Shown one piece after another: positions 2,503-42,089 of a DNA stretch of 64,000 nucleotides (position 1 is its first letter; each line of letters starts with the position of its first letter). This DNA comes from Herbidospora galbida (GTDB lineage: Bacteria > Actinomycetota > Actinomycetes > Streptosporangiales > Streptosporangiaceae). The position numbers were made by a program, and so were the translations under genes. The notes beneath the pieces are model-generated. The model saw only the letters and a list, made by a program, of their open reading frames with translations, ran no database searches and was not told the DNA's origin. Where the stretch lies: contig NZ_SZQA01000008.1 in the NCBI RefSeq assembly GCF_005233835.1, positions 1-64,000 of the forward strand. The letters are read 5' to 3'.

Positions 2503-4179
2503 ATGGCAGCGGATCGTGCGTCGATGGCCCAGCTCGTCCGGGATCTCGTCACCCCGCTGCACCCGTTCTTCAGCCCCGGCCGCGCCCGTCTGCGACTCGG
2601 CGTCAACACCGCCCACTACGACGACGCGGCGGCCGAACTGGAGGCCTTCGCCCGCCCCCTGTGGGGCCTGGCCCCCCTGGGCGAGGGCCTGGACCCGTGG
2701 CGCGAGGGCCTGGCGACCGGCACCGACCCCGGGCACCCCGAATACTGGGGCGACATCGCCGAGGTCGACCAGCGCCTGGTCGAGACGGCCGCGCTCGGCT
2801 TCGCCCTCGCCCTGGCACCCGAGCAGTTGTGGGACGGTCTGAGCGGAATCGAGCGCGATCGGGTGGCGACGTGGCTGTCGCAGGCCCTCGCCCGGTCGGG
2901 CGTCGACAACAACTGGCAGTTCTTCCCCGTCCTGGTCGCCCTCGGCCTGCGCAGGGTCGGCGTACCCGTCGACGCGTCGGTGGAGGCCCGGCTCGACCGG
3001 CTGGAGTCCTTCGCCCTCGGCCGAGGCTGGTATTCCGACGGCCCGACCGCCCAGCGCGACTACTACGTGCCGTTCGCGATGCACTACTACGGCCTCATCT
3101 ACGCCGGTCTGAGCGACGACGCCCGAGCCGAGCGCTTCCGTGCCCGCGCGGGCCAGTTCGCCCTCGACTTCCGCCACTGGTTCGCCGCCGACGGCGCGGC
3201 CGTCCCCTTCGGCCGGTCGATGACCTACCGCCACGCGCAGGCCGCGTTCTGGGGCGCGATGGCGTTCGCCGAGGTCGACGCGCTGCCGTGGGGCGAGACC
3301 AAGGGCTACCTGCTCCGGCACCTGCGCTGGTGGCAGAGCCGTGACGTCGCCACCCGCGACGGGGTGCTGACGGTCGGCTACGCCTACCCGCAGCCGCTCC
3401 TCGCGGAGCAGTACAACGCCCCCGGGTCGCCCTACTGGGCCATGAAGGCGTTCCTCCCCCTGGCCCTGGCGGAGGACCACCCCTTCTGGACCACCCCCGA
3501 GACGCCCGCGCCGCCGACCGACGGAGTCGTCCGCCAGCCCGAGGCCGGGGTGGCCGTGATCCGGTCGGACGAAGGCCGCCACGTGGTCCTGCTGAGCACC
3601 GCGCAGCACAACACGTGGGCCCGCGGCGGCCCGGCCAAGTACGCCAAGTTCGCCTACTCAACCGTCTTCGGCTTCAGCGTCCCCGCCGGGAGCTACGGCC
3701 TGGACCAGGGTGCCTTCGACAGCACCCTGGCGCTGAGCGACGACGGCCTGCACTGGCGCTGCTGCGAGGTCCCCGAGGCGGTTGGAGACCTCCACCTGCG
3801 CTGGTCACCGTGGGACGACGTCCAGATCGAGACGTGGCTGATCCCCCGCGCCCCCGACCACCTGCGCGTCCACCGCATCGTGTCGGCCCGCCGCCTGTTC
3901 ACCGCCGAAGCGGCCTTCGCGGTCAACCGCGACACCGAGACCGGCCGCGGCACCGGCGACGGCTACGCGTGGGCGACCTCCGACCAGGGCCTGTCCCGCA
4001 TCGAAGACGTGACCGACTCCGACTGGCCGACGGGGGTCCGGCGGGACGGGGAGGTCGTGCAGCCGCACCCGGGGACGAACGTCCTGGTGCCGCGCACGAT
4101 CCTCCCCACCCTGCGGGGGGAGCACGATCCGGGCGAATACTGGCTGGTGGCCAGGGTCACCGGCTCGCCCGGTCGATGA
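2503..4179 (+). CDS. DUF2264 domain-containing protein
   Basis: A 558-residue protein that matches the DUF2264 family in layout: an N-terminal alpha-helical toroid-like region with aromatic-rich segments (NNWQFFPVL, DYYVPFAMHYYG, about 140-200), then a beta-rich second half. Families with this fold often act on or near unsaturated uronic acids or other polysaccharide fragments, but no activity is established for this one. There is no signal peptide. The ATG at 2503 has a good AGGAG at -6. The gene diverges from the dehydrogenase pair, hinting at joint control of a sugar-acid catabolic route (inference). Its last 23 bases overlap the convergent ATPase gene. Confidence 0.8.
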   Translation: MAADRASMAQLVRDLVTPLHPFFSPGRARLRLGVNTAHYDDAAAELEAFARPLWGLAPLGEGLDPWREGLATGTDPGHPEYWGDIAEVDQRLVETAALGFALALAPEQLWDGLSGIERDRVATWLSQALARSGVDNNWQFFPVLVALGLRRVGVPVDASVEARLDRLESFALGRGWYSDGPTAQRDYYVPFAMHYYGLIYAGLSDDARAERFRARAGQFALDFRHWFAADGAAVPFGRSMTYRHAQAAFWGAMAFAEVDALPWGETKGYLLRHLRWWQSRDVATRDGVLTVGYAYPQPLLAEQYNAPGSPYWAMKAFLPLALAEDHPFWTTPETPAPPTDGVVRQPEAGVAVIRSDEGRHVVLLSTAQHNTWARGGPAKYAKFAYSTVFGFSVPAGSYGLDQGAFDSTLALSDDGLHWRCCEVPEAVGDLHLRWSPWDDVQIETWLIPRAPDHLRVHRIVSARRLFTAEAAFAVNRDTETGRGTGDGYAWATSDQGLSRIEDVTDSDWPTGVRRDGEVVQPHPGTNVLVPRTILPTLRGEHDPGEYWLVARVTGSPGR

Positions 4180-7100
4180 CCTCCTCGGTCGTCAACGGCG
4201 CACGGGGGTGGTGGCTGAGGCAGAGAGGCGTACGCACCTTCGCGAACCCCGCCCCCTCGGGTGCGACGTAGAACTGACCGCTGCGAAGCGCCCCGATGTC
4301 GTCGGCGCTGCCGCCCTTGACCCGGGCCATCTCCTTGGCCGCCTCGATCTGCACCTGCGCGTTGAGCAGCCCGTAGAACTGGGTGGCCGCGTTGCCGGGG
4401 ATCCGGTTGTGCAGGCCCTTGGGCGCCTGCGTGGCGAACACCAGCCCGAGCCCGTACTTCCTGGCCTGGGAGGCGAGCGCCAGCGTGCTCTGCGTGCACA
4501 CGGTCGTGGCACCCGAAGGGGCGAAGTTCTGCGCCTCGTCCATCACGAACAGCCCGCCCAGAGGCCGGTCGCCCGCCGGGTTCTTCTTGATCCAGGCGAA
4601 GAGCGCCATCTGCAGCTGGTTCACGAACGACTGCCGCTCGGAGTCGCTCTGCAGCCCCACGAACGAGATGACCGAGACACGGGCCCGCTTGCCGGCGGCC
4701 GGGGTGAGCAGCCGGCCGGGATCGACCGGCTGCCCCTCGCCGCCGAACAGCGGGTCGTTGACCATCGCCGCCCGGAGCACCTGCGCGAGCCCGTCTGCGA
4801 TCTTGACAGCGCCGCTGATCTGGCTGATGTCCTCGGGGAAGTCGGCGAGCAGCCCGATGAGCCCGTTGAGGCCGCCGCTCTTGTACCTCCCGAAGTGGAC
4901 GACGGCCTCCTTGAGCACCGCCCGCGACACCGCGGCCTTGCTGGTGTTCCCCTCGGCCTTGGCCCTCGGCACCAGCGCGGCCACGGCTGCGTCGACGGCC
5001 TCGTTGAACTCGTCGACGTCGTTCCGGACGCTCGTGAAGTCGGGCAACGGCTGGAACGCCAGCGGCCGGCCCTTCTCCCTGCGCGGCGTCCACACGACGA
5101 CGTCGGTGTCGGCGATGTAGCGAGCCGCCCGCGCGGCGTCACCGGGCCCCCAGGCCGAGGGCTCCTCGGGCCACGCGTCACCGAGACGGGCGAGGTCGTT
5201 GTTGGTGTCGAGCACGATCGAGGAGACGCCCTGCAGCGCGCACTCTTCGATGATCCGCCTGATCAGGACGGTCTTGCCCGAGCCTGAACCGGCGAAGATC
5301 GCGGTGTGCTTGCGCAGCGCCTCGAGTTCGACCGAGACCGGGAGCCCGCGCTCGTAGGATCGGCCGACGATCAGGGTGGGCGCCTTGGCGGGCAGGACGA
5401 CGGGTTCTATCAAGGTCACCGGCGAGTGCCCCGAGGAACCCGCCTCGCGGGTCGGCAGTGCGGGCGGCTCCTCGAGGATGTCGCCCTCAGGTGCTTTTGG
5501 GACGTGCGGCACCTGCGGAGCGGCGGCCTGCGGCTCGTCGGACCAGTCCTCGAGGACGTCCCTGAGCAGCTTGATCGCACTCGCCGGCCGCTTGAGGACC
5601 AGCCATTTGTTGAGGCTGGGCGGGTTCTGCGCCATCAGGTCGCGCAGGGCGCTGAGGCTCTTAAGGTCGTCCTCGTCGACCGTGACGATCCGCCCGCCCC
5701 TCGCCCGGAAGTCGGCCAGGGCCTGCTGGGTCTTGGGCCCGGCCGCCCACGGAACGTTCCTGAGGACGATGAGCCTGCGCTTGGGCGTCTCGGCTTCGAG
5801 GCCCGCCGCGATGGCCGCCCTCTTGAGCCGGGTCAGCGCCGCGTTCGGATGCTTGGCGCTGATGCCGCGGATCGCCCAGTGGATCTCGTCCTCCCTGGCC
5901 TCGTCGAGGACCTGGCGGAGGCGCGCGTGCAGGGAGGTCTTCTGGCCGAAGGTCGGGTCGACCTTGTAGGTCGTCGTGTCGTCGCCCTTCTCGATGGCCC
6001 AGGCCTGCAGCCCGGCGGCGAGCAGGCCGGGGAGGACGGCGTCCTCCTGCGTCGCGTCGAGGGCCCCGGTGACGTGCGCGGCGTCTTCGAGCAGGGCGAA
6101 CTTCGTCTCGATGCCGTGGACTTCGCTGAGCGTCGTCTGGATCGCGGTGACCGGTTCGACCTGGTGCGTCTCGACTCCGTCGAAACGGAAGAGCTCCTTG
6201 ACCTCGCCCCGCGCGACGCAGGCCTTGATGTGCTCGGTGAGCGCCCGAAGAATCACTCGCGGCGTGTAGAACGGGGCCTCGGCGAAGGCTTCCGGCCGGA
6301 CCGGCCAGGTGGGATAGGGCGGCTCGAAGCCGATGCCCTTGAAATGCTCGGCCAGCCGTCGGATCACGAGCTCCTGGCCGACCTCGGGAGAGGGAACGCG
6401 CTTGAGGATCGTGGTCTGCTCGAACCGGTCCTTGAAGCTCGTCACCGACAACTGCCTGAGCAGAATCCACGTGTCCGGCAGGCAGGAGACAACGGACAAG
6501 GTCCTGCTCGTCACCTCACGCAGCGAGGTCAGCCCATGGGCGATCTGCAGCGCGGTGGCCCGGGTCCGAGGGTCGACCACGCCGTCCCCGAACAGCGCCA
6601 TGGAGCTGATGAGCGGGTCGAGTTGGTCGAAGGCCATGACGCTCGGGCCGGTCAGCGCCAGCAGGCCCGAGATGTCCCTGACCAACTCCTGCGGAGTCCG
6701 CATGGCCTGGCGGAATCCCCATTCGCGGCGATCGCCCTCGAAATCCTCCAGGCCGTACATGTAACTGTCGCCCAGGCTGGCCAGGTTGTAGTCGTTCGCC
6801 GCCAGCAGGACCAGCGCACGGGCCGTGTCCTGAGCCTGCATGAACAACTTGGAGTCTCGCTTGTACAGCCCCTGCAGGAACTCCTTGAGGTGCTCCTTCT
6901 CCAGTGGCTGGTTGCCGATGACGGCCTGTTGCGTCCGGCGGGGCAGTGACATCGGCTCGGTCAGATTGCGGAGGAAGCGCTTGAGCTGGCTCTCCTCGTC
7001 CGCCCCGACCCGGGCGAGACCATCCTGGATGGACACCAGGGCGCTCTCCCAGAAGTTGCGCGCGTCGAGCACGCTCATCAGGAAGAAGTAGCCGTCACGC

Positions 7101-7351
7101 CGGATGACCTGCTCGCGCAGCCAGCTCATCAGATGCGTCTTGCCGCTTCCGGCCGTCCCCTCGAGGACGACCCCGATCGGACTGGAAGTGCCCACGCTCC
7201 GGGCGGCCGCCTCCAGCCCCGACGTCAGCGCCTGCGACGCCTGGGGGTGCAACCCCTCGACATGGAAGGGCACCGGACGCCAGACGTCTTCCCCGCCGTT
7301 GACCGTCGAGATGACGTTCAGGGAGCTGAGCGCGTACCAGTCCGTGATCAT
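4157..7351 (-). CDS. Dual P-loop ATPase: N-terminal AAA/STAND-like, C-terminal HerA/VirB4-like
   Basis: A 1064-residue protein with two P-loop NTPase domains. The first has Walker A EGTAGSGKT (64-72) and an acidic strand SVMAFDQLD (237-245), like AAA/STAND or Orc-type ATPases. Residues about 450-640 include a helix-rich stretch and a Pro-rich linker. The second has Walker A AGSGSGKT (687-694), Walker B GLFVMDEAQ (933-941) and a motif ATQAPKGLHNRIPGNAATQF (973-992), the pattern of HerA/FtsK/VirB4 DNA translocases (DUF87-like). It is the last gene of a three-gene operon; its ATG shares one base with the upstream stop (TGATG). The likely role is ATP-driven DNA translocation or sensing together with the nuclease encoded first. 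I know no named system with exactly this composition. Confidence 0.85.
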   Translation of the reverse strand: MITDWYALSSLNVISTVNGGEDVWRPVPFHVEGLHPQASQALTSGLEAAARSVGTSSPIGVVLEGTAGSGKTHLMSWLREQVIRRDGYFFLMSVLDARNFWESALVSIQDGLARVGADEESQLKRFLRNLTEPMSLPRRTQQAVIGNQPLEKEHLKEFLQGLYKRDSKLFMQAQDTARALVLLAANDYNLASLGDSYMYGLEDFEGDRREWGFRQAMRTPQELVRDISGLLALTGPSVMAFDQLDPLISSMALFGDGVVDPRTRATALQIAHGLTSLREVTSRTLSVVSCLPDTWILLRQLSVTSFKDRFEQTTILKRVPSPEVGQELVIRRLAEHFKGIGFEPPYPTWPVRPEAFAEAPFYTPRVILRALTEHIKACVARGEVKELFRFDGVETHQVEPVTAIQTTLSEVHGIETKFALLEDAAHVTGALDATQEDAVLPGLLAAGLQAWAIEKGDDTTTYKVDPTFGQKTSLHARLRQVLDEAREDEIHWAIRGISAKHPNAALTRLKRAAIAAGLEAETPKRRLIVLRNVPWAAGPKTQQALADFRARGGRIVTVDEDDLKSLSALRDLMAQNPPSLNKWLVLKRPASAIKLLRDVLEDWSDEPQAAAPQVPHVPKAPEGDILEEPPALPTREAGSSGHSPVTLIEPVVLPAKAPTLIVGRSYERGLPVSVELEALRKHTAIFAGSGSGKTVLIRRIIEECALQGVSSIVLDTNNDLARLGDAWPEEPSAWGPGDAARAARYIADTDVVVWTPRREKGRPLAFQPLPDFTSVRNDVDEFNEAVDAAVAALVPRAKAEGNTSKAAVSRAVLKEAVVHFGRYKSGGLNGLIGLLADFPEDISQISGAVKIADGLAQVLRAAMVNDPLFGGEGQPVDPGRLLTPAAGKRARVSVISFVGLQSDSERQSFVNQLQMALFAWIKKNPAGDRPLGGLFVMDEAQNFAPSGATTVCTQSTLALASQARKYGLGLVFATQAPKGLHNRIPGNAATQFYGLLNAQVQIEAAKEMARVKGGSADDIGALRSGQFYVAPEGAGFAKVRTPLCLSHHPRAPLTTEEVIDRASR

Positions 7352-8004
7352 CAGCGGGCCCCGATTCGAAGCTGGTGGTTGGGCTCGCTGCCGATCACGA
7401 CGGCGGCCGCGTGGTCCTCCGGCGACAGGTTGCCGGGAATCGACGCGGCGAGGATGTGTACCTCAGGGGAGTTCAGCAACATCCGGCGCAGCGCGTTGTC
7501 CTGCTCCGACCGGTCGATGTCATCGAGCAAGGGCCGCAACCTGGTCAGGGTGACCCACTCCCCCACACCAGGGGTGATCTTCGCGTAGGCCTCACGGATG
7601 CGGTCTTCGACCTCGTCGCCACCGAGGGCGACCGGAACCGCCGCCGGCTCCGGCGCCGCCTCCGGCTCGGGCGCCACCTCCTCGGCCGCCGGCACCGCGG
7701 GCCCCAAGAGCGTGCGCAGGTAGAGCAACGCCAGAGTCTTGCCCGACCGCGAGGTCACCGCGACACCCTTCTGAACCTCTTCCAGTGCCCTCTCCTCACC
7801 GGCGGGCGTGACCAGATACCAGATGGTTCCGCGCTCCCGCTTCTCCGACTCGATCAGCTTGCCGTCCACCAACCCGGCCCGGTTCTTGGTGTCGAGGTCC
7901 AAGCCCCAGTTGTCCCGCAAATCCTTGTGGCCAACAGCCGTTCCCAGCTCCTTGAGGACAAGGAGGGCCGCAACCTGCCGGTATGTGAGTTTTTCTTCGG
8001 ACAT
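7351..8004 (-). CDS. Winged-helix-like linker protein of the nuclease/ATPase operon
   Basis: A 217-residue protein with no family I can name. Residues about 5-75 look like a winged helix (LTYRQVAALLVLKEL, then GTIWYLVTPAGEERALEEV). A Pro/Ala/Glu-rich linker follows (about 105-128), then a second compact domain (about 130-205) with GVGEWVTLTRLRPLLDDID, possibly another winged helix. It overlaps both neighbours by one base (TGATG junctions at 8004 and 7351), so the three products are probably made in fixed ratio and may form a complex. A DNA-binding or adaptor role is inference from fold appearance and context. Third-position A/T is more common here than in flanking housekeeping genes. Confidence 0.7.
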   Translation of the reverse strand: MSEEKLTYRQVAALLVLKELGTAVGHKDLRDNWGLDLDTKNRAGLVDGKLIESEKRERGTIWYLVTPAGEERALEEVQKGVAVTSRSGKTLALLYLRTLLGPAVPAAEEVAPEPEAAPEPAAVPVALGGDEVEDRIREAYAKITPGVGEWVTLTRLRPLLDDIDRSEQDNALRRMLLNSPEVHILAASIPGNLSPEDHAAAVVIGSEPNHQLRIGAR

Positions 8005-9209
8005 CAGACTGCTCCTTCGCTCAGCCCGAGGCGTCGCCCCAGGAGGAATTTCTTGATCCGGCGGAGCACCGCCGGCAGATCGTCGAGCACCTGCTCGTTG
8101 GTGAAGCGCAGCACGGTGAAACCGTCACGGTCCAAATGCCGATCCCGAAGTCGGTCCATTTCGGCTTTGGCCGCCGTCAGGTGCTCGGGTCCGTCGAGTT
8201 CCACGACGCACTTCTCGTGCGCCCACATCAGATCGGTGCGGATCGTCACGAACAGCGCGTCGTTCGACGGGTAAGTCTGGTTCCATTCGCGCCCGTGGGC
8301 CCAGGGACACTCGAGCAGCGCCTTCTCCACGGCCTGCTCGACCTCGCTGTAGCGAGCGGGTTCTCCCCGGAGCGGCGGCCACCGGAGGACGGCGGCAGGC
8401 GGCTCGGACGGCGGAAGCCCCGCGGCCAGCAGGGCGACCGCCTTCGGGACCTTGAGATGGACGGTCTCGACCCGTCTGACCTCGGGGCCGACCAGCCAGA
8501 CGCCCATCCCGCTCTGATGTGCGAGCCATTCGCATCCGGCCACGAGCACGGTCTCGCCGTGCGAACTCAGCTTCTCCGGCACATAGACGACGAGCGCCAC
8601 CTCGTGCCGCCGGTAGGCGGCCGCGACGACCCGGGCCAGCCCGGCCGCGCGGACCTCGGCGGGAAAGGCACGGCCCCGGGTGGGCCTGAGGGTGAACGAG
8701 TCCCGGTGCTGAATCGCGTGGGCGGCGAGTTCGGCCAGGAACGGTCCGAAATGGCGGGCGCCCGTGGCCATGCGCATCGCGAGAACGCGCGCCGCCGCCA
8801 TTCCGGCGCCACCCGGGCCGTCGAGCTTCTCGCCTTCGGGCAGCCAGGCGGGAAAGAGGCCGACGGCCAGCGTCTCCAGTTCCCGGAGGATCGATCCGAC
8901 CAGTTCAGGGACCGAGTCGCACTCCGCGGCCGCGTAGGTGACGACGGCCGGGCCGGTCTCCGGTAAAGGGTCCAGCAACAATTCCATGACATTGGCGTCA
9001 ATGCTGGAATCGACTCCGGCAATGCGGAGCACCCTCCCCACCGGGAGATCGCCCCACGAGAATGGCATGCCGGTTCCCTCGGACACTCTTCTGAAAACGT
9101 GACGCCGCAGAGGGTATAGGGCACACCGCATGATGCGCAGGAATTCTAGAGATAACTCCGTTTCCGGAGTAACAAAACCGTCGAAACAGTCATCCTGACA
9201 ATCATTCAA
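8004..9209 (-). CDS. Predicted DUF559/Vsr-like endonuclease with N-terminal domain of unknown function
   Basis: A 401-residue protein, first gene of the nuclease/winged-helix/ATPase operon. The C-terminal domain (about 285-390) carries the DUF559/Vsr-type PD-(D/E)XK pattern: Asp326 in RTDLMW, then CVVELDGPEH with Glu337, Asp339 and His343, then RDRHL and GFTVLRFTNEQVL. Residues about 85-270 have alternating helices and strands (VALVVYV, GMGVWLVG) like a nucleotide-binding fold, but I see no Walker A, so it may be an inactivated STAND-like module (inference). The open frame starts at a TTG (9209), with a GATATA/TATATC box just upstream. An ATG 26 codons later (MRCALYP) is the alternative start. 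Likely role: DNA cleavage in defence or DNA repair. Confidence 0.78.
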   Translation of the reverse strand: MNDCQDDCFDGFVTPETELSLEFLRIMRCALYPLRRHVFRRVSEGTGMPFSWGDLPVGRVLRIAGVDSSIDANVMELLLDPLPETGPAVVTYAAAECDSVPELVGSILRELETLAVGLFPAWLPEGEKLDGPGGAGMAAARVLAMRMATGARHFGPFLAELAAHAIQHRDSFTLRPTRGRAFPAEVRAAGLARVVAAAYRRHEVALVVYVPEKLSSHGETVLVAGCEWLAHQSGMGVWLVGPEVRRVETVHLKVPKAVALLAAGLPPSEPPAAVLRWPPLRGEPARYSEVEQAVEKALLECPWAHGREWNQTYPSNDALFVTIRTDLMWAHEKCVVELDGPEHLTAAKAEMDRLRDRHLDRDGFTVLRFTNEQVLDDLPAVLRRIKKFLLGRRLGLSEGAV

Positions 9210-9358
9210 ATCCCGATATATCCGAACTTATCCGGGTCACTCCGTACAGGAAAAGACTGCGCCACCCCTGCCGCCATCAGATCCGACCTATGTCCGGTTT
9301 CAAGGCACTCGAACGGTCGCTTTGTCACGTTCCCGTGCCTATACATCCAACCTATCTG

Positions 9359-9387
9359 TTGACGACAAAGACCTGTCAGCTTAATCT
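9359..9387 (+). promoter_or_regulatory. Sigma-70 promoter of the SGNH hydrolase gene
   Basis: TTGACG at 9359-9364, a 17-bp spacer and TAATCT at 9382-9387 form a near-consensus vegetative promoter. It predicts a start near 9394 and a leader of about 37 nt ending in GAAGGAC before the ATG at 9431. Confidence 0.7.
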
Positions 9388-9430
9388 CGGCCTGATCACG
9401 AGCGTGGTCTCGTACAGGCAGAAGGACACG

Positions 9431-12194: not shown

Positions 12195-12246
12195 GCGAGA
12201 CGCGGACGGCCGCAGGCCCGGACGTGGCTCGCGTCATGAATCTGCC
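12195..12246. repeat. Dispersed hairpin repeat, copy A
   Basis: One of four related elements in the window. The 38-bp core (12195-12232) is an imperfect hairpin bounded by GCGAG and CTCGC. The conserved flank GGCAGATTCA (minus strand, 12246-12237) lies beside it. Here the flank covers the last codons and stop of the methyltransferase gene, and the core touches the -35 of the MerR promoter. Confidence 0.75.
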
Positions 12247-13028
12247 TCAAGAGACGCGCAGAGCACTTCGCCGTGCACGATCGTCAGGAACCCGTCGGGG
12301 TCGGCGGCCCAGGTCAGCCAGCCGTCGGCGATGCGCCGCAGATCCTCCGGCGTGGCCAGCCCCGCGTCCACGGCCTGGCGGCCCAGCGACGACCTCACCA
12401 CCCGGTCGGCCCACATGCCGCCCCAGAACGCCCGGTCGTCGGGGGTGGCGAAGCACCAGGTGGAGGTGGAGACCTCGATGTCGGTGAACCCGGCCGCGCG
12501 GGCCCACGAGAGCATCCGCCGGCCCGCGTCGGGCTCGCCGTCGTTGCGCCGGGCCACGGCGTAGTAGAGCGCGAGCCACTCGTCGAGTTCCGGCAGCGCC
12601 GGATACCAGGTGAACGCGCCGTAGTCGCTGTCGCGGGCGGCGACCAGCCGGGCCACCCGCCCCAGTTCCCGTAGCGCCCGCACCGGGTCGGCGACGTGCT
12701 GCAGGACCTGGTGGGCGTGCGCGACGTCGAAAGCCTTGTCTCCGTACGGCAGCGCGTGCACGTCGGCCACCTCGAAGGCGATGTTCGGCGTCCCCCGTCG
12801 CTCCGCCTCGGCGCGGGCGAGGTCGAGCTCGTCGGGGCCGATCTCGGTGGCGGTGACGTGGGCGACCCGCGCCGCCAGGTCGGCGGTGATGGTGCCGGGG
12901 CCGCAGCCCACGTCGAGCAGGGTGGTGTCGGGGGTCAGGTGCGGCAGCAGGTGGGCCGCGGAGTTCTCGGCGGTGCGCCAGCGGTGGGACCGCAGCACGC
13001 TCTCATGGTGCCCATGCGTGTAGTGCAT
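12234..13028 (-). CDS. Class I SAM-dependent methyltransferase (UbiE-like)
   Basis: A 264-residue methyltransferase. Motif I is LLDVGCGPGTIT (about 38-49) and the later acidic residue is in VTATEIGPD. The post-motif region HQVLQHVADPVRALREL fits UbiE/Methyltransf_11 proteins. The C-terminal part with DSDYGAFTWYP and AGFTDIEVSTSTW is shared by an actinobacterial subgroup of unknown substrate. The start ATG at 13028 (MHYTHGHHESV) is where family members usually begin; the frame is open further upstream. The segment VARLVAARDSD lacks the Pro-Gly-Gly normally found there (RPGG), an apparent three-residue loss in a surface turn. The 3' end runs into a dispersed repeat. Confidence 0.88.
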   Translation of the reverse strand: MHYTHGHHESVLRSHRWRTAENSAAHLLPHLTPDTTLLDVGCGPGTITADLAARVAHVTATEIGPDELDLARAEAERRGTPNIAFEVADVHALPYGDKAFDVAHAHQVLQHVADPVRALRELGRVARLVAARDSDYGAFTWYPALPELDEWLALYYAVARRNDGEPDAGRRMLSWARAAGFTDIEVSTSTWCFATPDDRAFWGGMWADRVVRSSLGRQAVDAGLATPEDLRRIADGWLTWAADPDGFLTIVHGEVLCASLEADS

Positions 13029-13109
13029 GGGCACGAGAGTACGCCTCGTCTCGCGATACGAGAGGATCCGTATCAGATAATGAGACCTGTCTAAGAAGGA
13101 TCTCCCCAC

Positions 13110-13146: not shown

Positions 13147-13322
13147 TAGAACGTCTTGCCGATGTGGAACCCGCCGGGCAGCCGCACGGTCACGTGGCGG
13201 CGTCCGTCAGGGGTGCGATAGACGTGGAAACGACGGCCCCCGTAGCTGCGGGAGACGCCGTGACGTGAGAGGTGAAAGCGCAGCGGTCCGACTTTTACCG
13301 ACTTCCGGTAGTCCCATCCCAT
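13146..13322 (-). CDS. DUF4236 domain-containing small protein
   Basis: A 58-residue protein beginning MGWDYRKSVKVGPLRFHLS and followed by RHGVSRSYGG, the signature opening of DUF4236 proteins (usually GFRFRRSIKIGPGxRxNLS). The family is widespread and of unknown function, often found as a module in stress or regulatory proteins. This one is a free-standing domain. The start is an ATG at 13322 without a strong ribosome binding site; the stop TAG touches hairpin repeat copy B. It lies 34 bp downstream of pgeF on the same strand and may be co-transcribed. Confidence 0.8.
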   Translation of the reverse strand: MGWDYRKSVKVGPLRFHLSRHGVSRSYGGRRFHVYRTPDGRRHVTVRLPGGFHIGKTF

Positions 13323-13356: not shown

Positions 13357-14076
13357 CTAGCCGAGCCAGATATAGGCCCCGAAGCGCCCGGTCTGCCCTT
13401 CACGGCGATATGAGTAGAGATCGCCGGTTTCGATGGTGCAGCGGGCGTCGTGCCGGACGTCGTCCACCCCGGCCCGGGAGAGCTGCGCCGCGATGGCCGC
13501 CCGCAGGTCGACCGAGGGGGTGTCGCGCGAGGTGGTCGCCCAGGCCTCGGGGACGACGGCGGCGACCTCGTCGCGCATCTCGGCGGGCACCTCGTAGCAC
13601 CGCCCGCAGGCGGCCGGCCCGACCAGCGCGACCATCCGGCCCGGGTCTGCCCCGCGCCCGGCCATGGCCTCGACCAGCGCGGGCACCACCCCGGCGAGGG
13701 TGCCGGGCCGCCCCGAGTGGGCGGCGCCGACGAGCCGGGCGACCGGATCGGCCACCAGCACCTGGGCGCAGTCGGCGGCCAGCGAGACCAGCGCGAGCCC
13801 CTCTTCGGCGGTGAAGATCGCGTCGAGGCCGGGCGGCTCGTCGCCGAACGGCCGGTCGACGTAGGCGACGTCGCGCCCGTGGACCTGCCGCATGAGCACC
13901 ACACGGGCGGGGTCGACGCCGAACTCCAGGGCGGTCATCCGCCGGTTGGCCGCCACGTTTTCGGGGTCGTCGCCGACGGCCCCGCCGAGGTTCCGGCCGC
14001 CGAAGGGGGCCGGGCTCACGCCGCCATGACGATCGGTGATCACGGCGTGTACGCCCTCGGCCAGCAGCACCCTCAC
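13357..14076 (-). CDS. pgeF: Laccase-domain purine nucleosidase/peptidoglycan editing factor (YfiH family)
   Basis: A 239-residue YfiH/DUF152 protein. Family members phosphorolyse or deaminate purine nucleosides and, in E. coli, prevent wrong residues in peptidoglycan stems. Zinc ligands are recognisable: His in RQVHGRDV, Cys in AADCAQVLV and His in GAAHSGRPG. C-terminal CTIETGDLYSYRREGQTGRF is the usual family ending. In most actinobacteria the gene sits beside ftsZ; here it is with a PLP enzyme gene instead. The GTG start at 14076 overlaps the upstream stop by 4 nt, so translation is coupled. Confidence 0.88.
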   Translation of the reverse strand: MRVLLAEGVHAVITDRHGGVSPAPFGGRNLGGAVGDDPENVAANRRMTALEFGVDPARVVLMRQVHGRDVAYVDRPFGDEPPGLDAIFTAEEGLALVSLAADCAQVLVADPVARLVGAAHSGRPGTLAGVVPALVEAMAGRGADPGRMVALVGPAACGRCYEVPAEMRDEVAAVVPEAWATTSRDTPSVDLRAAIAAQLSRAGVDDVRHDARCTIETGDLYSYRREGQTGRFGAYIWLG

Positions 14077-22050: not shown

Positions 22051-22055
22051 GGCAG

Positions 22056-22128
22056 CTCCCGCGATAGGACTCGAACCTATAACCTGCCGGTTAACAGCCG
22101 GCTGCTCTGCCGATTGAGCTACACGGGA
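22056..22128 (-). tRNA. tRNA-Asn (GTT)
   Basis: The minus strand folds into a full 73-nt cloverleaf. The acceptor stem is TCCCGTG/CGCGGGA with one G-T pair, the anticodon loop CTGTTAA reads GTT (Asn), and the T arm contains GGTTCGAGTCC. The CCA end is not encoded. A promoter-like pair lies upstream and a strong hairpin downstream, so it seems to be a single-gene transcript. Confidence 0.95.
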
Positions 22129-22175
22129 TCGTGCTGTGCTCCGCTGCCTTGCGGCTTTCCTTGCGGCGCGGAACT

Positions 22176-22206
22176 AGATTAGCGCACTCAGGGGGTGGTC
22201 TGTCAC
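22176..22206 (-). promoter_or_regulatory. Putative promoter of tRNA-Asn
   Basis: Minus-strand GTGACA (22206-22201), a 19-bp spacer and TAATCT (22181-22176) lie about 50 bp before the tRNA 5' end. The spacer is long, so support is moderate. Confidence 0.4.
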
Positions 22207-22296
22207 ATCCATTGGCGTGCCCTTTGGCGGAGCCCGGTTTGGATAGATGCACACCCATTGGGTAGGGGCGGGAGTAGCGAAGCGCGGAGGTGGAAG

Positions 22297-22578
22297 ATGC
22301 GGTACAAGGTGATGTTCGCCGCCGGGCTGGGTCTTGGATACGTCCTGGGCACCCGCGCCGGGCGTGAGCGCTACGAGCAGATCGTGCGAGCCACGAAGAG
22401 GGTGTCCGACAGCCCCGCCGTCCAGGAGGCGGCCGGTCTGGTGGGCGCCCGTGTGTCGAAGATGACCGTGGCGGCCAAGGACAGGGTCCCGTTCCTGCGT
22501 AAGCCTGACCCCTGGGACGGGGAGACCACAGCCGGCCCGACAGGCTGGCCAGATCCAGAGGTCAACCGGATCACCTGA
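22297..22578 (+). CDS. Small YtxH-like protein
   Basis: A 93-residue protein with a single N-terminal hydrophobic segment (MRYKVMFAAGLGLGYVLGTR) followed by a basic amphipathic helix (AGRERYEQIVRATKRV). This resembles the YtxH/GvpP-like small membrane-associated proteins of unknown role that are common in actinobacteria. The ATG at 22297 has a strong GGAGGTGG site. A terminator hairpin follows its stop. Confidence 0.75.
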   Translation: MRYKVMFAAGLGLGYVLGTRAGRERYEQIVRATKRVSDSPAVQEAAGLVGARVSKMTVAAKDRVPFLRKPDPWDGETTAGPTGWPDPEVNRIT

Positions 22579-22590
22579 CGACGAGACGGC

Positions 22591-22622
22591 GAAGGCCCGC
22601 CCCTGCAGAGGGGCGGCCCTTC
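22591..22622. terminator. Hairpin between convergent genes
   Basis: Arms of 14 nt (22591-22604 and 22609-22622, GAAGG outer ends, GCCCCT core) pair around GCAG with one mismatch. It sits between the YtxH-like gene and the convergent hypothetical gene, so it can serve both strands. There is no T run. Confidence 0.65.
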
Positions 22623-22629
22623 GTGACGT

Positions 22630-23100
22630 TCAGACGCCGAGGCTTCTGCGGACCTGCTCCAGAGCCTGTTCGGCGGCGGCCAGCACGCCGGGATCACTGC
22701 CGTCGAGGCCGTCGTCGAACGCCAGTTCCCATTCGATGGTGTCGGTTCCGGCGATCCGCCGGGCGATGAAGCGGACGCCCGCCTCCGCGGTGAGTTTCAC
22801 ATAGCGGTTGGCGACGATGGAGTTCTGCACCCTTTCCCGGATGGTTTCCGGCAAGAAGCCGGGCTCCTCGATATCCACCCGATAAACGCCGCCCGTCACT
22901 GTCGTAATGTTCATCCCGGTTTCGTCCCAGGACGCCTTGTCGACGGTGTGCCAGGGCACCCGTTCCCCGCCGGGAAGGTGCAGCGCCACGAAGGTCGCGA
23001 CGGCATAGCCGCCGGACGGCGCGGGGGCGAAACTCAGCACCCGCTCCCCCGACAGACGGGTGCGGATGTCGGCGGGCAAGCGATTCCCGAACAGAGCCAT
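22630..23100 (-). CDS. Conserved hypothetical protein
   Basis: A 156-residue soluble protein that I cannot assign to a named family. It starts MALFGNRLPADIRTRLSG and has a beta-rich middle (GGYAVATFVALHLPGG, YVKLTAEAGVRFIARRI) and a helical end (AAAEQALEQVRRSLG), the look of a PH-like or similar small domain common in actinobacteria. A TACATT box lies 7 nt before the ATG, so the mRNA is probably leaderless. It is downstream of and on the same strand as the sigma-factor gene, separated by a strong hairpin in between. Confidence 0.75.
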   Translation of the reverse strand: MALFGNRLPADIRTRLSGERVLSFAPAPSGGYAVATFVALHLPGGERVPWHTVDKASWDETGMNITTVTGGVYRVDIEEPGFLPETIRERVQNSIVANRYVKLTAEAGVRFIARRIAGTDTIEWELAFDDGLDGSDPGVLAAAEQALEQVRRSLGV

Positions 23101-23120
23101 ATCAGGGAATGTACAAGCGG

Positions 23121-23154
23121 ACGGCCCGTGCCCCGGTTGGGGGGCACGGGCCGT
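23121..23154 (-). terminator. Strong hairpin after the sigma-factor gene
   Basis: A perfect 14-bp, very GC-rich stem (23121-23134 with 23141-23154) around GGTTGG, 13 bp past the stop of the sigma gene. No T run follows. It lies just upstream of the -10 of the next gene. Confidence 0.75.
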
Positions 23155-23167
23155 GATCCGATGACGG

Positions 23168-24319
<1,152 letters not shown>

Positions 24320-24452
24320 GGAACACAGTCTGCGGTATAACCACAACAAAACGGCAGGCCTATTTTTGTCACCGAAGGTTAGATCCGCGTCATTACCGAA
24401 TCGATATCAAACCCGTGTTTCGCCTCTGTGAGGGGCGGAAAGGAATTGATAT

Positions 24453-26291
24453 TCACGCCCCGGCGGCGCGTTCTCTCAACACGCGTCGCTGCTGTTCGAG
24501 CGCCACCAGTTCGGCGAACATCCGGTTGTAGTCGCCCTGTTCGTCGATCGGGTTGAGCCGCTGCATCCGCGCCTTCAGCGCGTCGAGCTGACGACCCACC
24601 GTGACCTCTTGCAGCTTGGCCAGAACCGCCGTGCCGTAGCGCTCCTCGCTGCTCGTCTCGACCTTCACCGGGTCGACCGCGAGACGGGTGAGGAGCTGCC
24701 TGAGATCGTCGGAGACGGCCGCGAGGAGGATCTCGACCCACTCGCGCCCGCCCGGGCCCCCGGCGGCCGTGCCGCCACAGGAGGCGATCAGCTGGAACAG
24801 GGCCGCGTGGTCGGCGACGCCGAAGGCGCCGGGGCCCAGGGCGTCGAACTCCGGGCCGAGCAGGGCCGGGCGCTGGACGGCCAGCTTCAGCGCCTCCAGC
24901 TCCAGCCGGGCGAGCGGATCGAGCGGGGCCTGCTTCTTCTTCCCCGGCTCGCTGCGCGTCTCGGCCGGCCGGGCGGCGATCTCGGTGACCCGTTCGACGA
25001 CCAGGCGCTCGTTCATGAAGCCGAGCCAGCGGTCGAGGTCGACGGCGTACATGTGGCGCAGGGCCTTGTCTTTGATCGAGGCGACCACGGGGGCGGCGGC
25101 GTCGAGCGCCGACAGGCGGCCCTCGTTGGTGCTCGTGTCGTAGCGGCCGATCATGCTGCGGATGGCGAAGGCGAACAGCGGCTCGCGGCTGGCCACCAGG
25201 TCGCGGACGGCCGCGTCGCCCTTCTGGACCCGCAGGTCACAGGGGTCGAGCCCGTCGGGCTGCACGGCCACGAAGGTCTGGGTGACGAACTTCTGCTCGT
25301 CCTGGAAGGCTCGCAGGGCGGCCTTCTGCCCGGCCGAGTCGCCGTCGAAGGTGAAGATGACCTCGCCCTGGCCCTGGTCGAACAGGATGCGGCGCAGCAC
25401 CTTGATGTGGTCTTCGCCGAAGGCGGTGCCGCAGGTGGCCACGGCGGTCGGCACCCCGGCCAGGTGGAGGGCCATCACGTCGGTGTAGCCCTCGACCACG
25501 ACCGCCTGGGACCGCTTGGAGATCTCGCGTTTGGCCAGGTCGATGCCGTAGAGGACGGAGCTCTTGTGGTAGATCGGGCTCTCGGGGGTGTTCAGGTATT
25601 TGGGGCCGTCGTCGGCCTCGATGAGCTTGCGGGCGCCGAACCCGATGACGTCGCCGGTGATGTCGCGGATCGGCCAGATCAGCCGCCCCCGGAACCGGTC
25701 GATCGGCCCTCGGCGGCCCTCCCGCGCCAGCCCGCCCTTGATCAGCTCCTGGACGGTGAAACCCCGCCCCATCAGGTGGCGCGACAGCGCCTCCCACTCG
25801 TTGGGGGCGTAACCCACCCCGAAGTGGTCGGCGTCGGCCCGCTCGAACCCGCGCTCCGACAGGAACCGCCGGGCGACCGCGGCCTCAGGCGTGGTCAGGT
25901 TGGAGACGTAGAACTCGGCGGCGGCCCGGTGGGCCTCGATCAGCCGCGAGCGCTCCCCCTGCTGCCGGCCGGGCACGTAGCCGCCCTGCTCGTAGCGGAG
26001 CTGGATGCCCGCCCGCCCCGCCAGCCGCTCGACCGACTCGGCGAAGGTCAGCGCGTCGATCTTCTGGAGGAAGGAGATGACGTCGCCGCCCTCGGAGCAG
26101 CCGAAGCAGTAGTACATCCCCCGCGCGGGGGTCACGTTGAACGAGGGCGACTTCTCGTCGTGGAACGGGCACAGGCCCTTGAGGTTGCCGCCCCCGGCGT
26201 TGCGGAGCTGGACGTATTCGCCGATCACGTCGGCGATCGGGGAACGCTCCCTGACGAGGGCGATGTCGTCATCGCTGATCCGGCCTGCCAC
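24453..26291 (-). CDS. dnaG: DNA primase
   Basis: A 612-residue primase that lays RNA primers at the replication fork. The CHC2 zinc finger uses Cys41, His44, Cys62 and Cys65 (GLCPFHDEKSPSF and YYCFGCSEGG). The TOPRIM domain shows VVVEGYTDVMAL and IFTFDGDSAGQKAA, and the DnaB-binding C-terminal region is helical. Length is normal. The GTG start lies 6 nt after TAGACT, whose TAG is also the stop codon of the upstream lipoprotein gene, so dnaG probably has its own leaderless transcript inside the cluster. Confidence 0.96.
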   Translation of the reverse strand: MAGRISDDDIALVRERSPIADVIGEYVQLRNAGGGNLKGLCPFHDEKSPSFNVTPARGMYYCFGCSEGGDVISFLQKIDALTFAESVERLAGRAGIQLRYEQGGYVPGRQQGERSRLIEAHRAAAEFYVSNLTTPEAAVARRFLSERGFERADADHFGVGYAPNEWEALSRHLMGRGFTVQELIKGGLAREGRRGPIDRFRGRLIWPIRDITGDVIGFGARKLIEADDGPKYLNTPESPIYHKSSVLYGIDLAKREISKRSQAVVVEGYTDVMALHLAGVPTAVATCGTAFGEDHIKVLRRILFDQGQGEVIFTFDGDSAGQKAALRAFQDEQKFVTQTFVAVQPDGLDPCDLRVQKGDAAVRDLVASREPLFAFAIRSMIGRYDTSTNEGRLSALDAAAPVVASIKDKALRHMYAVDLDRWLGFMNERLVVERVTEIAARPAETRSEPGKKKQAPLDPLARLELEALKLAVQRPALLGPEFDALGPGAFGVADHAALFQLIASCGGTAAGGPGGREWVEILLAAVSDDLRQLLTRLAVDPVKVETSSEERYGTAVLAKLQEVTVGRQLDALKARMQRLNPIDEQGDYNRMFAELVALEQQRRVLRERAAGA

Positions 26292-40592: not shown

Positions 40593-42089
40593 TCAGTTGC
40601 GGTTGAACAGTCGCATCAGGCCCGCGATCACGGCGGTGCCCAGGCCCCAGCCGAACTGCCAGTAGGGCTCCTGTTTCAGGTCGGCGACCGGGAGGAGCAG
40701 ATCGAGGGTGTAGACGACCGGCTCGAAGTGGCGTGGCGTCTTCGGGTCGACGGCGATGGGCGGCCACACGGAGAAGATCGTGGCGCCGGTCGCCAGCAGC
40801 GCGGCCAGCCAGATCCCCGCCAGCCAACTGCGATAGCCGAACCCGGGCGTCAGGGTCCTGCGGCGGCGTCGGTGGCGTTCGAGCGCGACCCGGCGGGCGG
40901 CGGCCTCGTCGCCCCGGGCGCGGTACATGGCGCTGAGCTGTTCGAAGGGCTGCGGCGAGAAGCCGCCCGCGTCTCGATCAAGCCATTTCAGCCGATCGCG
41001 GAGGCCGATCTTGCCGTCGTCCTTGATCGCACCGTAGGTACAGCCCTCCAGTCGCACGTCGCGGGGCCACGCGTCGCGGTCGTCCTGGATGACGCCGAAC
41101 GTCGCGCCTTCGAGATTCATCGAGTCGGGCGGTACCGCGAATCTGACCCTCACCGTTCTCACGTCGGCAAACGACAAGTCGACGGACGTGCCTTCGGCGA
41201 AAACCGTCTTGTCAAGGTCGATGTCGCCGCCGACTCGCGAACCCTTCGCGTTGAAGCCGCCGTTCAGGTCGGCACCATGGAAATGCACGTTGCGCCCGAT
41301 CGCGGCGCGGGTGATATTGATGCTCTCATCGGTCGTTCCGGCGATCCGGCCGCGCTGGGCCCCGATTCCTCCGCCGATCTCCGCGTGACGCAGATAGATC
41401 CGCCCGGTCGAGCGGAATCCCCGGTCGATGAATACGCTCTCTCCCACTTTCGCTCGTTCCGCCTGAATCGCCGACACCTTCTCCGGCCGGAAATCCGATC
41501 CCCGCGCGGTGAACAATCCGCCGACGTGCGCACTGATCATGCGGAGCTGGCCGCAGACCAACGAGTCCCGGACGAACAATCCGCCGTCGATTCTGGCCCG
41601 GCTGAGGTAGACCGCCGTCTTCTCGCCGGGGTGCAGATGAACCTTCGACAATCGCAGGTCACCGCCGATCCGGGCGCCCTGCAAATCGATCGCGCCCATT
41701 ACCGCCGAGCCGTCGGTGATCTCGAAGTCTCCCTGTGTGCGCAGGTCAGAGCCGTACAGGACAGCGATTCTGCAGTCGTGAAGGCGAATGGTGACGGCGG
41801 TGGCGTCGGCCAGGTTCACGCCGGATTCGAAGTCGCACCCGGTCATTGCGACGGGCGCGGCGATGGCGCCGGCTTCGAGCACGAGTTCTTCGGTGATCCG
41901 GGCGCCGGTGACGCGTAATGCGGGACGCGCTCCCCGCGGAAGGTCACACGCGCCGAAAAGCACCGCGGCGATGACGTCGGCGCGCACCCGACGGTCGGGA
42001 AGCCGCGTGAGATCGACGGGCGCTCCCACGGGAAATGCGGCGACGATCCTCTGTTCGGCGATGTTCAGATCGGCGGGGAGTAGCTCCAC
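40593..42089 (-). CDS. Predicted beta-helix protein with two C-terminal membrane helices
   Basis: A 498-residue protein of unknown function. Residues about 60-370 are built of short beta-strand repeats (GARIGGDLRLSKVHL, RARIDGGLFVRDSLVCGQLR, RAAIGRNVHFHGADLNGGFN) like a right-handed beta-helix/pentapeptide or bactofilin fold. A charged helical segment (about 390-430) precedes two hydrophobic helices (LAGIWLAALLATGATIFSVW; WQFGWGLGTAVIAGLMRLF). The GTG at 42089 is chosen: TAGATT, including the recO stop TAG, lies 7 nt upstream. A TTG at 42134 would lengthen it by 15 codons and overlap recO. Composition is less GC-rich than its neighbours, and it separates recO from uppS. Confidence 0.75.
   Translation of the reverse strand: MELLPADLNIAEQRIVAAFPVGAPVDLTRLPDRRVRADVIAAVLFGACDLPRGARPALRVTGARITEELVLEAGAIAAPVAMTGCDFESGVNLADATAVTIRLHDCRIAVLYGSDLRTQGDFEITDGSAVMGAIDLQGARIGGDLRLSKVHLHPGEKTAVYLSRARIDGGLFVRDSLVCGQLRMISAHVGGLFTARGSDFRPEKVSAIQAERAKVGESVFIDRGFRSTGRIYLRHAEIGGGIGAQRGRIAGTTDESINITRAAIGRNVHFHGADLNGGFNAKGSRVGGDIDLDKTVFAEGTSVDLSFADVRTVRVRFAVPPDSMNLEGATFGVIQDDRDAWPRDVRLEGCTYGAIKDDGKIGLRDRLKWLDRDAGGFSPQPFEQLSAMYRARGDEAAARRVALERHRRRRRTLTPGFGYRSWLAGIWLAALLATGATIFSVWPPIAVDPKTPRHFEPVVYTLDLLLPVADLKQEPYWQFGWGLGTAVIAGLMRLFNRN

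Follow-up and report, generated by a model that had tools for sequence, protein, structure and literature searches.

A conserved three-gene operon of Herbidospora with an Orc/Cdc6-HerA double motor and an exchangeable nuclease: a candidate DNA-interception system

Introduction

The operon analysed here has its closest described relatives in the "HerA/FtsK capture systems", a prediction made by Rakesh, Aravind and Krishnan (2024; PMC10853773). These systems bring together an Orc/CDC6 AAA+ protein, an inactive and an active nuclease domain, a HerA/FtsK translocase and wHTH proteins, and are proposed to pump DNA to a restriction part (PMC10853773). The prediction is repeated in the text of a 2026 BREX paper (PMC12839542). 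DndH, the motor of a further comparable system, is described as having its own nuclease and several further domains (PMC10853773), and DUF4365 (DREN) serves as the nuclease effector of SPARDA (PMC12205087).

The operon lies in a window of 64,000 nucleotides, the whole stretch of Herbidospora galbida DNA that was analysed (NZ_SZQA01000008.1), and comprises the following features:

Gene A, 8004..9068, minus strand: 354 aa, P-loop-NTPase-like domain followed by a DUF559/Vsr-type nuclease
Gene B, 7351..8004, minus strand: 217 aa, fast-evolving, Pro/Ala linker between two segments that look winged-helix-like by eye only
Gene C, 4157..7351, minus strand: 1064 aa, Orc/Cdc6-type AAA+, middle domain and HerA-type translocase
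Intergenic region between A and a divergent GDSL-hydrolase gene, 9069..9430, no strand: presumed promoter region, from the gene map
3' overlap of the convergent genes C and DUF2264, 4157..4179, no strand: 23 bp, identical overlap in 6/6 congeners

Results

Operon layout and gene starts

The three-gene operon A-B-C is real and conserved, and the sequence bears out the original prediction of three minus-strand genes joined by 1-base TGATG overlaps at 8004 and 7351. The operon end at 9209 had to be moved, since in four of the six congeners the alignment begins no earlier than residue 44 of the 401-aa reading frame, in the remaining two it runs across a stop, and an ATG at 9068 carries GAGGGA just upstream; A thus starts at 9068 and is 354 aa long. 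The raised third-position A/T use that had been noted is also recovered, with third-position G+C values of 0.83 (A), 0.86 (B) and 0.92 (C) against 0.93-0.98 in other genes of the first 1-14 kb. Elsewhere in the window, a gene for a pentapeptide-repeat protein (40593-41987, 464 aa) has a similarly low value of 0.83, a short DUF4236 reading frame (13149-13322) adjoins the gene at 13357-14070, and at 22055-26291 a tRNA-Asn and a dnaG primase gene are close neighbours of a sigma-70 gene that has regions 1.1 to 4 and a third-position G+C of 0.88.

Domain architecture of the three proteins

Fold matches identify in C an Orc/Cdc6-type AAA+ part (about residues 30-381) and a HerA-type translocase (about 656-1057), with a middle domain (about 404-601) between them. 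The motor is of HerA/DndH type, as the C-domain of DndH is its second best fold match; HerA-NurA structures are among the top matches of C, and VirB4/TrwB-type folds match the motor too. All 158 C proteins compared have both Walker A motifs, and 152 keep the DEAQ of the HerA motor, which agrees with the description of C as a 1064-residue protein with two P-loop domains, the second HerA-like. The helices and strands of the middle domain follow an order compatible with a REase core, albeit one without the conserved (D/E)xK on the expected strand, and a winged helix in its first half is a possible alternative reading. Within the best 80 of 296 confirmed matches, the closest named relative of C comes from Herbidospora solisilvae (94% identity).

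The C-terminal domain of A (about residues 240-348) is, as had been claimed, a DUF559/Vsr-type nuclease by Pfam and fold match, and it has intact acidic residues; the nuclease motif is kept in 82 of 83 A proteins, and the exception retains both acidic residues. The N-terminal domain (about residues 1-213) resembles a P-loop NTPase in a weak fold match, lacks Walker A, and may be an inactive STAND/AAA-like domain. Foldseek returned no match for A at E up to 0.001, and the fold statements for A are based on VIA, Pfam and sequence.

For B, the Pro/Ala linker of the original prediction is visible by eye, and so are two winged-helix-like segments, which the searches did not confirm, no Pfam family being found at E up to 1. 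A calmodulin match (E about 2e-4) covers one helical stretch and was taken as an artefact. The mean dN of B, 0.248, is the highest among the genes compared; the thioredoxin gene, however, has a higher dN/dS (0.411, against 0.357 for B), and these values do not demonstrate selection on B.

Comparison with known systems

The operon shares with the Orc/CDC6 branch of HerA/FtsK capture a HerA/FtsK motor, an Orc/Cdc6-type AAA+ domain, a nuclease and a small fast-evolving partner. The active REase, which in the prediction belongs to one of two stated families, may have its counterpart in the active-looking DUF559 nuclease of A; the fast-evolving wHTH protein may correspond to B, with the highest mean dN and winged helices seen by eye only; and for the inactive REase between the AAA+ core and a C-terminal wHTH, the candidate is the middle domain of C in its possible reading as a REase core. 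In contrast to the predicted systems, the AAA+ part, middle domain and HerA part of C form one polypeptide, and A fuses a P-loop-like domain to DUF559, with DUF4365 as an alternative. Searches of the main text of PMC10853773 found no "Vsr", its sections 22 and 26 name neither DUF559 nor DUF4365, and the lineage may appear in its figures or supplements. Taken together, the operon is probably an actinobacterial layout of the predicted HerA/FtsK capture kind, with exchangeable nucleases.

The original prediction called the trio undescribed, and this holds in part. No PADLOC model matches A or B (E up to 1), NCBIfam models stay below their cut-offs for all three proteins, and among the papers listed on DUF559 or DUF4365 with HerA, DUF87 or anti-phage defence, no listing mentions such a trio; the layout, however, is predicted in the text of PMC10853773.

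Other systems fit less well. The operon differs from DndFGH in that neither A nor B has a DndF- or DndG-like match. Sir2-HerA (Nezha) and HerA-DUF4297 were rejected, neither Sir2 nor DUF4297 being found in A or B (Pfam, PADLOC, E up to 1); A belongs to another effector family, the AAA+ part is fused to HerA, and B is an extra protein. HerA-NurA shares the HerA motor plus nuclease, but the nuclease of A is Vsr/DUF559, and no NurA match was obtained in A or B at E up to 1. Two likenesses to MADS were noted: the PADLOC mad8 model matches the HerA part of C (E 2.5e-17), and a methyltransferase-like gene 3 kb away (12234-13034), probably a generic methyltransferase, matches 104/492 mad2 positions (E 9.1e-15). 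MADS was nevertheless set aside, since only the HerA part matches mad8 and nothing in A or B does; mad8 is moreover not specific, as it also matches 2/150 far neighbours of related loci. BREX and BREX-related capture were rejected as well, PglZ and BrxC-type genes being absent among the scanned neighbours and PADLOC matching neither A nor B.

Distribution and exchange of partners

Searches recovered C from 51 of 198 relatives (own genome counted, E at most 1e-10), from 6 of 396 genomes drawn evenly across the phylum (own counted, E at most 1e-60) and, within one mycobacterial genus, inferred to be Mycobacterium/Mycolicibacterium, from 38 of 148 genomes. After removal of two weak HerA-only matches (L080, L081) and two partial loci (L082, L083), 130 profile-scanned loci, some of which repeat one contig, and 40 further loci gave 170 C loci; these reduce to 158 distinct C proteins, the window included, when identical copies and L072 (under 900 aa) are dropped, 12 in all. 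The taxonomy label of L102 (Gloeocapsa) disagrees with its title, which says Rhodococcus. In 170/170 loci, C is immediately preceded by a co-directional B, at most 200 bp away.

The partner upstream of B varies. Among the 130 profile-scanned loci, A occurs in 82, a DUF4365 protein with a protein of about 365 aa in 12, a partial DUF4365 in one and neither in 35. For the 158 distinct C proteins, the corresponding counts are 83 with DUF559, 12 with DUF4365 plus the ~365-aa protein and 63 with neither (41 of them mycobacterial), shares that are biased toward closer relatives because the named relatives are the best 80 of 296 confirmed. Only 9 of 50 distinct mycobacterial loci have A, the other 41 consisting of B and C without A; outside the mycobacteria (n=108), 74 have DUF559, 12 DUF4365 and 22 neither. 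Placing the three partner states on a FastTree tree of C takes at least 19 changes, a raw count without shuffle control.

Two of the 12 DUF4365 proteins were scanned and Pfam confirmed the domain in each; a D..xVK-like motif is present in 10/12. The accompanying ~365-aa protein occurs in all 12 of these type II loci (e.g. L073, 5787-6884); Pfam gave nothing above cut-off in the three scanned, and hhalign found no relation to A (probability 0.1). In five loci (L099, L107, L124, L126, L130), A is replaced by a gene of 556-663 aa about 8-64 bp upstream of B; the two of these genes that were scanned have nothing beyond sub-threshold NTPase-like matches. A ParA-like/CATASP gene precedes B by about 40 bp in one locus, and in Lentzea sp. 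(L163, 760-13123) a co-directional pPIWI_RE cassette with PD-(D/E)XK nuclease, REase/Y, Z and PIWI genes lies about 166 bp upstream of B-C. Decayed pieces of A persist in L153 and possibly in L195, so that A was probably lost there.

In L108, L111, L116, L137 and L140, similar large genes stand upstream of B in divergent orientation; in L140, the one locus scanned, Pfam identifies them as Trypco1, known from predicted conflict systems (PMC7159879), and a WD40-repeat protein. These divergent genes were not counted as partners, since synteny alone could explain them, and a PIF1-type helicase cluster near six loci (Pfam in L149) was rejected on the same grounds.

In the 27 DUF559 loci with the gap measured, A and B are separated by -11 to 23 bp, and 45 B-C gaps comprise 40 overlaps of 1 or 4 bases, four gaps of 2 bp and one of 73 bp, lengths that are partly set by construction as A and B starts were picked near the preceding stop. 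Mantel correlations of the distances of A, B and C over 83 loci (A-C 0.88, B-C 0.85, A-B 0.76; reached by 0/500 permutations) show co-inheritance of the three rather than contact.

These patterns allow the tentative reading, which we would not put higher than a possibility, that B-C is a DNA-pumping chassis on which effectors are swapped, namely DUF559, DUF4365 with the ~365-aa protein, the weakly NTPase-like protein, ParA/CATASP and perhaps the pPIWI_RE cassette. In this reading, mycobacteria often retain the chassis with no nuclease next to it, and the action would fall to the pump or to a nuclease in trans. The 41/50 mycobacterial loci imply that A is not needed for retention there. The B-C pairs without A are the main loose end, for which a pump acting alone, a nuclease in trans or decaying systems are possible explanations.

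Genomic context and allele turnover

In 6/6 congeners the operon sits between identical flanking genes, and its dS is mostly higher than that of the flanks. In one congener (G001, locus L039), dS is 0.57 (A), 0.96 (B) and 0.57 (C), with flanks at 0.02-0.21 except for the adjacent GDSL gene (0.78); these values suggest allele replacement at a fixed Herbidospora site.

In mycobacteria the unit is patchy and occupies several neighbourhoods. One site, read by hand, has both flanks within 10 kb on one contig in 28 of 69 genomes. The flanks are 8-1041 bp apart in nine of the 28 (seven without a C match, two with C elsewhere); in 15, other sequence separates them by about 2.1-2.3 kb; C lies between the flanks at a spacing of about 3.9 kb in three and 8.9 kb in one. 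The expectation that the unit recurs in variable islands is thus met by a divided picture, the site being fixed in Herbidospora, while both between genera and inside the mycobacteria the unit has a patchy occurrence and several sites.

A trio is carried on a 1.57 Mb Methylobacterium plasmid, and another, in Tsukamurella, lies between rpsQ and rplN and adjoins a VapBC pair. Plasmid matches number 3 in 72,556 records, two of which look chromosomal (11.9 Mb; ribosomal protein genes). No match was found among 50,697 phage records, and none of 30 candidate stretches in viral contigs is a relative, so that a phage origin has no support from either collection. The scanned window neighbours include DUF2264, aldehyde dehydrogenase, GDSL hydrolase, Macro and thioredoxin genes, and no relaxase or transfer gene occurs among the scanned window genes, a minority of the window.

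Defence genes near related loci

Neighbours of 53 hand-chosen loci were scanned, limited to proteins no longer than 1400 aa. The near set, from the two preceding genes and the one that follows, covers 150 of 152 proteins; the far set, from positions five and six to either side, covers 150 of 160. With an E limit of 1e-10, the near set matches 84 PADLOC families and the far set 43 (n=150 each). The 25 listed of the 84 near families are mostly kinase-type models with at most three proteins each; the 25 listed of the 43 far families are mostly kinase-type too, with one protein each except mad3 (7) and mad8 (2), and include one Cas11e, the strongest match among these 25 being 4.7e-72. At E up to 1e-80, the near set retains seven models for PprPIWI, LmuB, Cas1 and AbiU with one protein each, a strength that none of the listed far families reaches; the PprPIWI match must be that of the Lentzea locus (L163). 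The strict near scan counts slightly for defence. Known defence genes are rare beside the relatives, and the neighbour pattern is a weak sign of a defence context and no test of it.

Discussion

Defence is the best-supported explanation of the operon, and we consider it rather likely that A-B-C would act as a restriction-like DNA-interception system. We infer that the three products form a complex directed at phage or plasmid DNA. C, probably a ring, would load on or recognise invading DNA through its Orc/Cdc6-type AAA+ part together with B, a presumed recognition or regulatory subunit that evolves fast; its HerA part would translocate the duplex toward the nuclease; and A, docked via its inactive NTPase-like domain, would cut that DNA with its Vsr/DUF559 domain. 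The nuclease would be exchangeable, as DUF559 or DUF4365, and could be lost. This model is supported by the folds, the intact Walker A, DEAQ and nuclease motifs, the swap to DUF4365, the patchy distribution with empty and filled sites, the trio on the Methylobacterium plasmid, the VapBC neighbour in Tsukamurella, the dS values of the divergent congener and the near PADLOC matches at 1e-80, and the same layout was independently predicted as counter-invader. Against it stand the small neighbour signal (four families with one match each among 150 near proteins), the mostly kinase-type matches of both near and far sets at the looser limit, the site fixed in all six congeners, and the retention of B and C without A in 41 of 50 mycobacterial loci; it is also weakened by the putative nature of the winged helices in B, of the inactive nuclease domain in C and of the N-terminal fold of A. 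The defence idea of the original prediction is kept as the best explanation, a judgement drawn only from comparison.

The fixed site in Herbidospora and the few defence neighbours would suit a chromosomal repair or end-processing machine, in which a HerA motor and a Vsr-like nuclease act on broken or mismatched DNA in the manner of HerA-NurA; HerA-NurA structures also rank at the top of the fold search, and the Vsr endonuclease itself acts in DNA repair. We regard such a role as unlikely, because the unit is patchy within one genus (38/148) with empty sites, its nuclease is exchanged or absent, and the high dN of B and the signs of allele replacement also argue against it.

A similarly doubtful alternative is an abortive-infection alarm, with C and B as a sensor built on a STAND/Orc-like ATPase and A as a suicide nuclease released on invasion, HerA remodelling the complex and pumping nothing. 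The Orc/STAND-type ATPase of C agrees with this, as does the inactive STAND/AAA-like domain that A possibly carries; besides, SPARDA, which uses a DUF4365-type nuclease, has collateral activity that leads to death or dormancy (PMC12205087), and a weakly NTPase-like gene replaces A in five loci. The motor motifs, however, are kept in nearly all C proteins, suggesting ATP-driven DNA work.

An anti-plasmid or anti-conjugation system, or a domesticated transfer or segregation module of mobile elements, is quite improbable, given that the VirB4/TrwB-type fold matches of the motor and the one Methylobacterium plasmid copy are set against the rarity of plasmid matches, most of them apparently chromosomal, and the lack of relaxase or transfer genes among the minority of window genes scanned.

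In the text of PMC10853773, the Orc/CDC6 branch of HerA/FtsK capture stands as a prediction with no experimental test reported there. The operon belongs to a compact three-gene lineage across many actinobacterial genera, with natural versions that have either of two nucleases or none, and this makes the idea of pumping DNA to a nuclease directly testable, including whether the pump alone protects. The operon therefore merits a phage test, though the idea is not wholly new, and its most interesting aspect is the exchange of nucleases on a constant pump.
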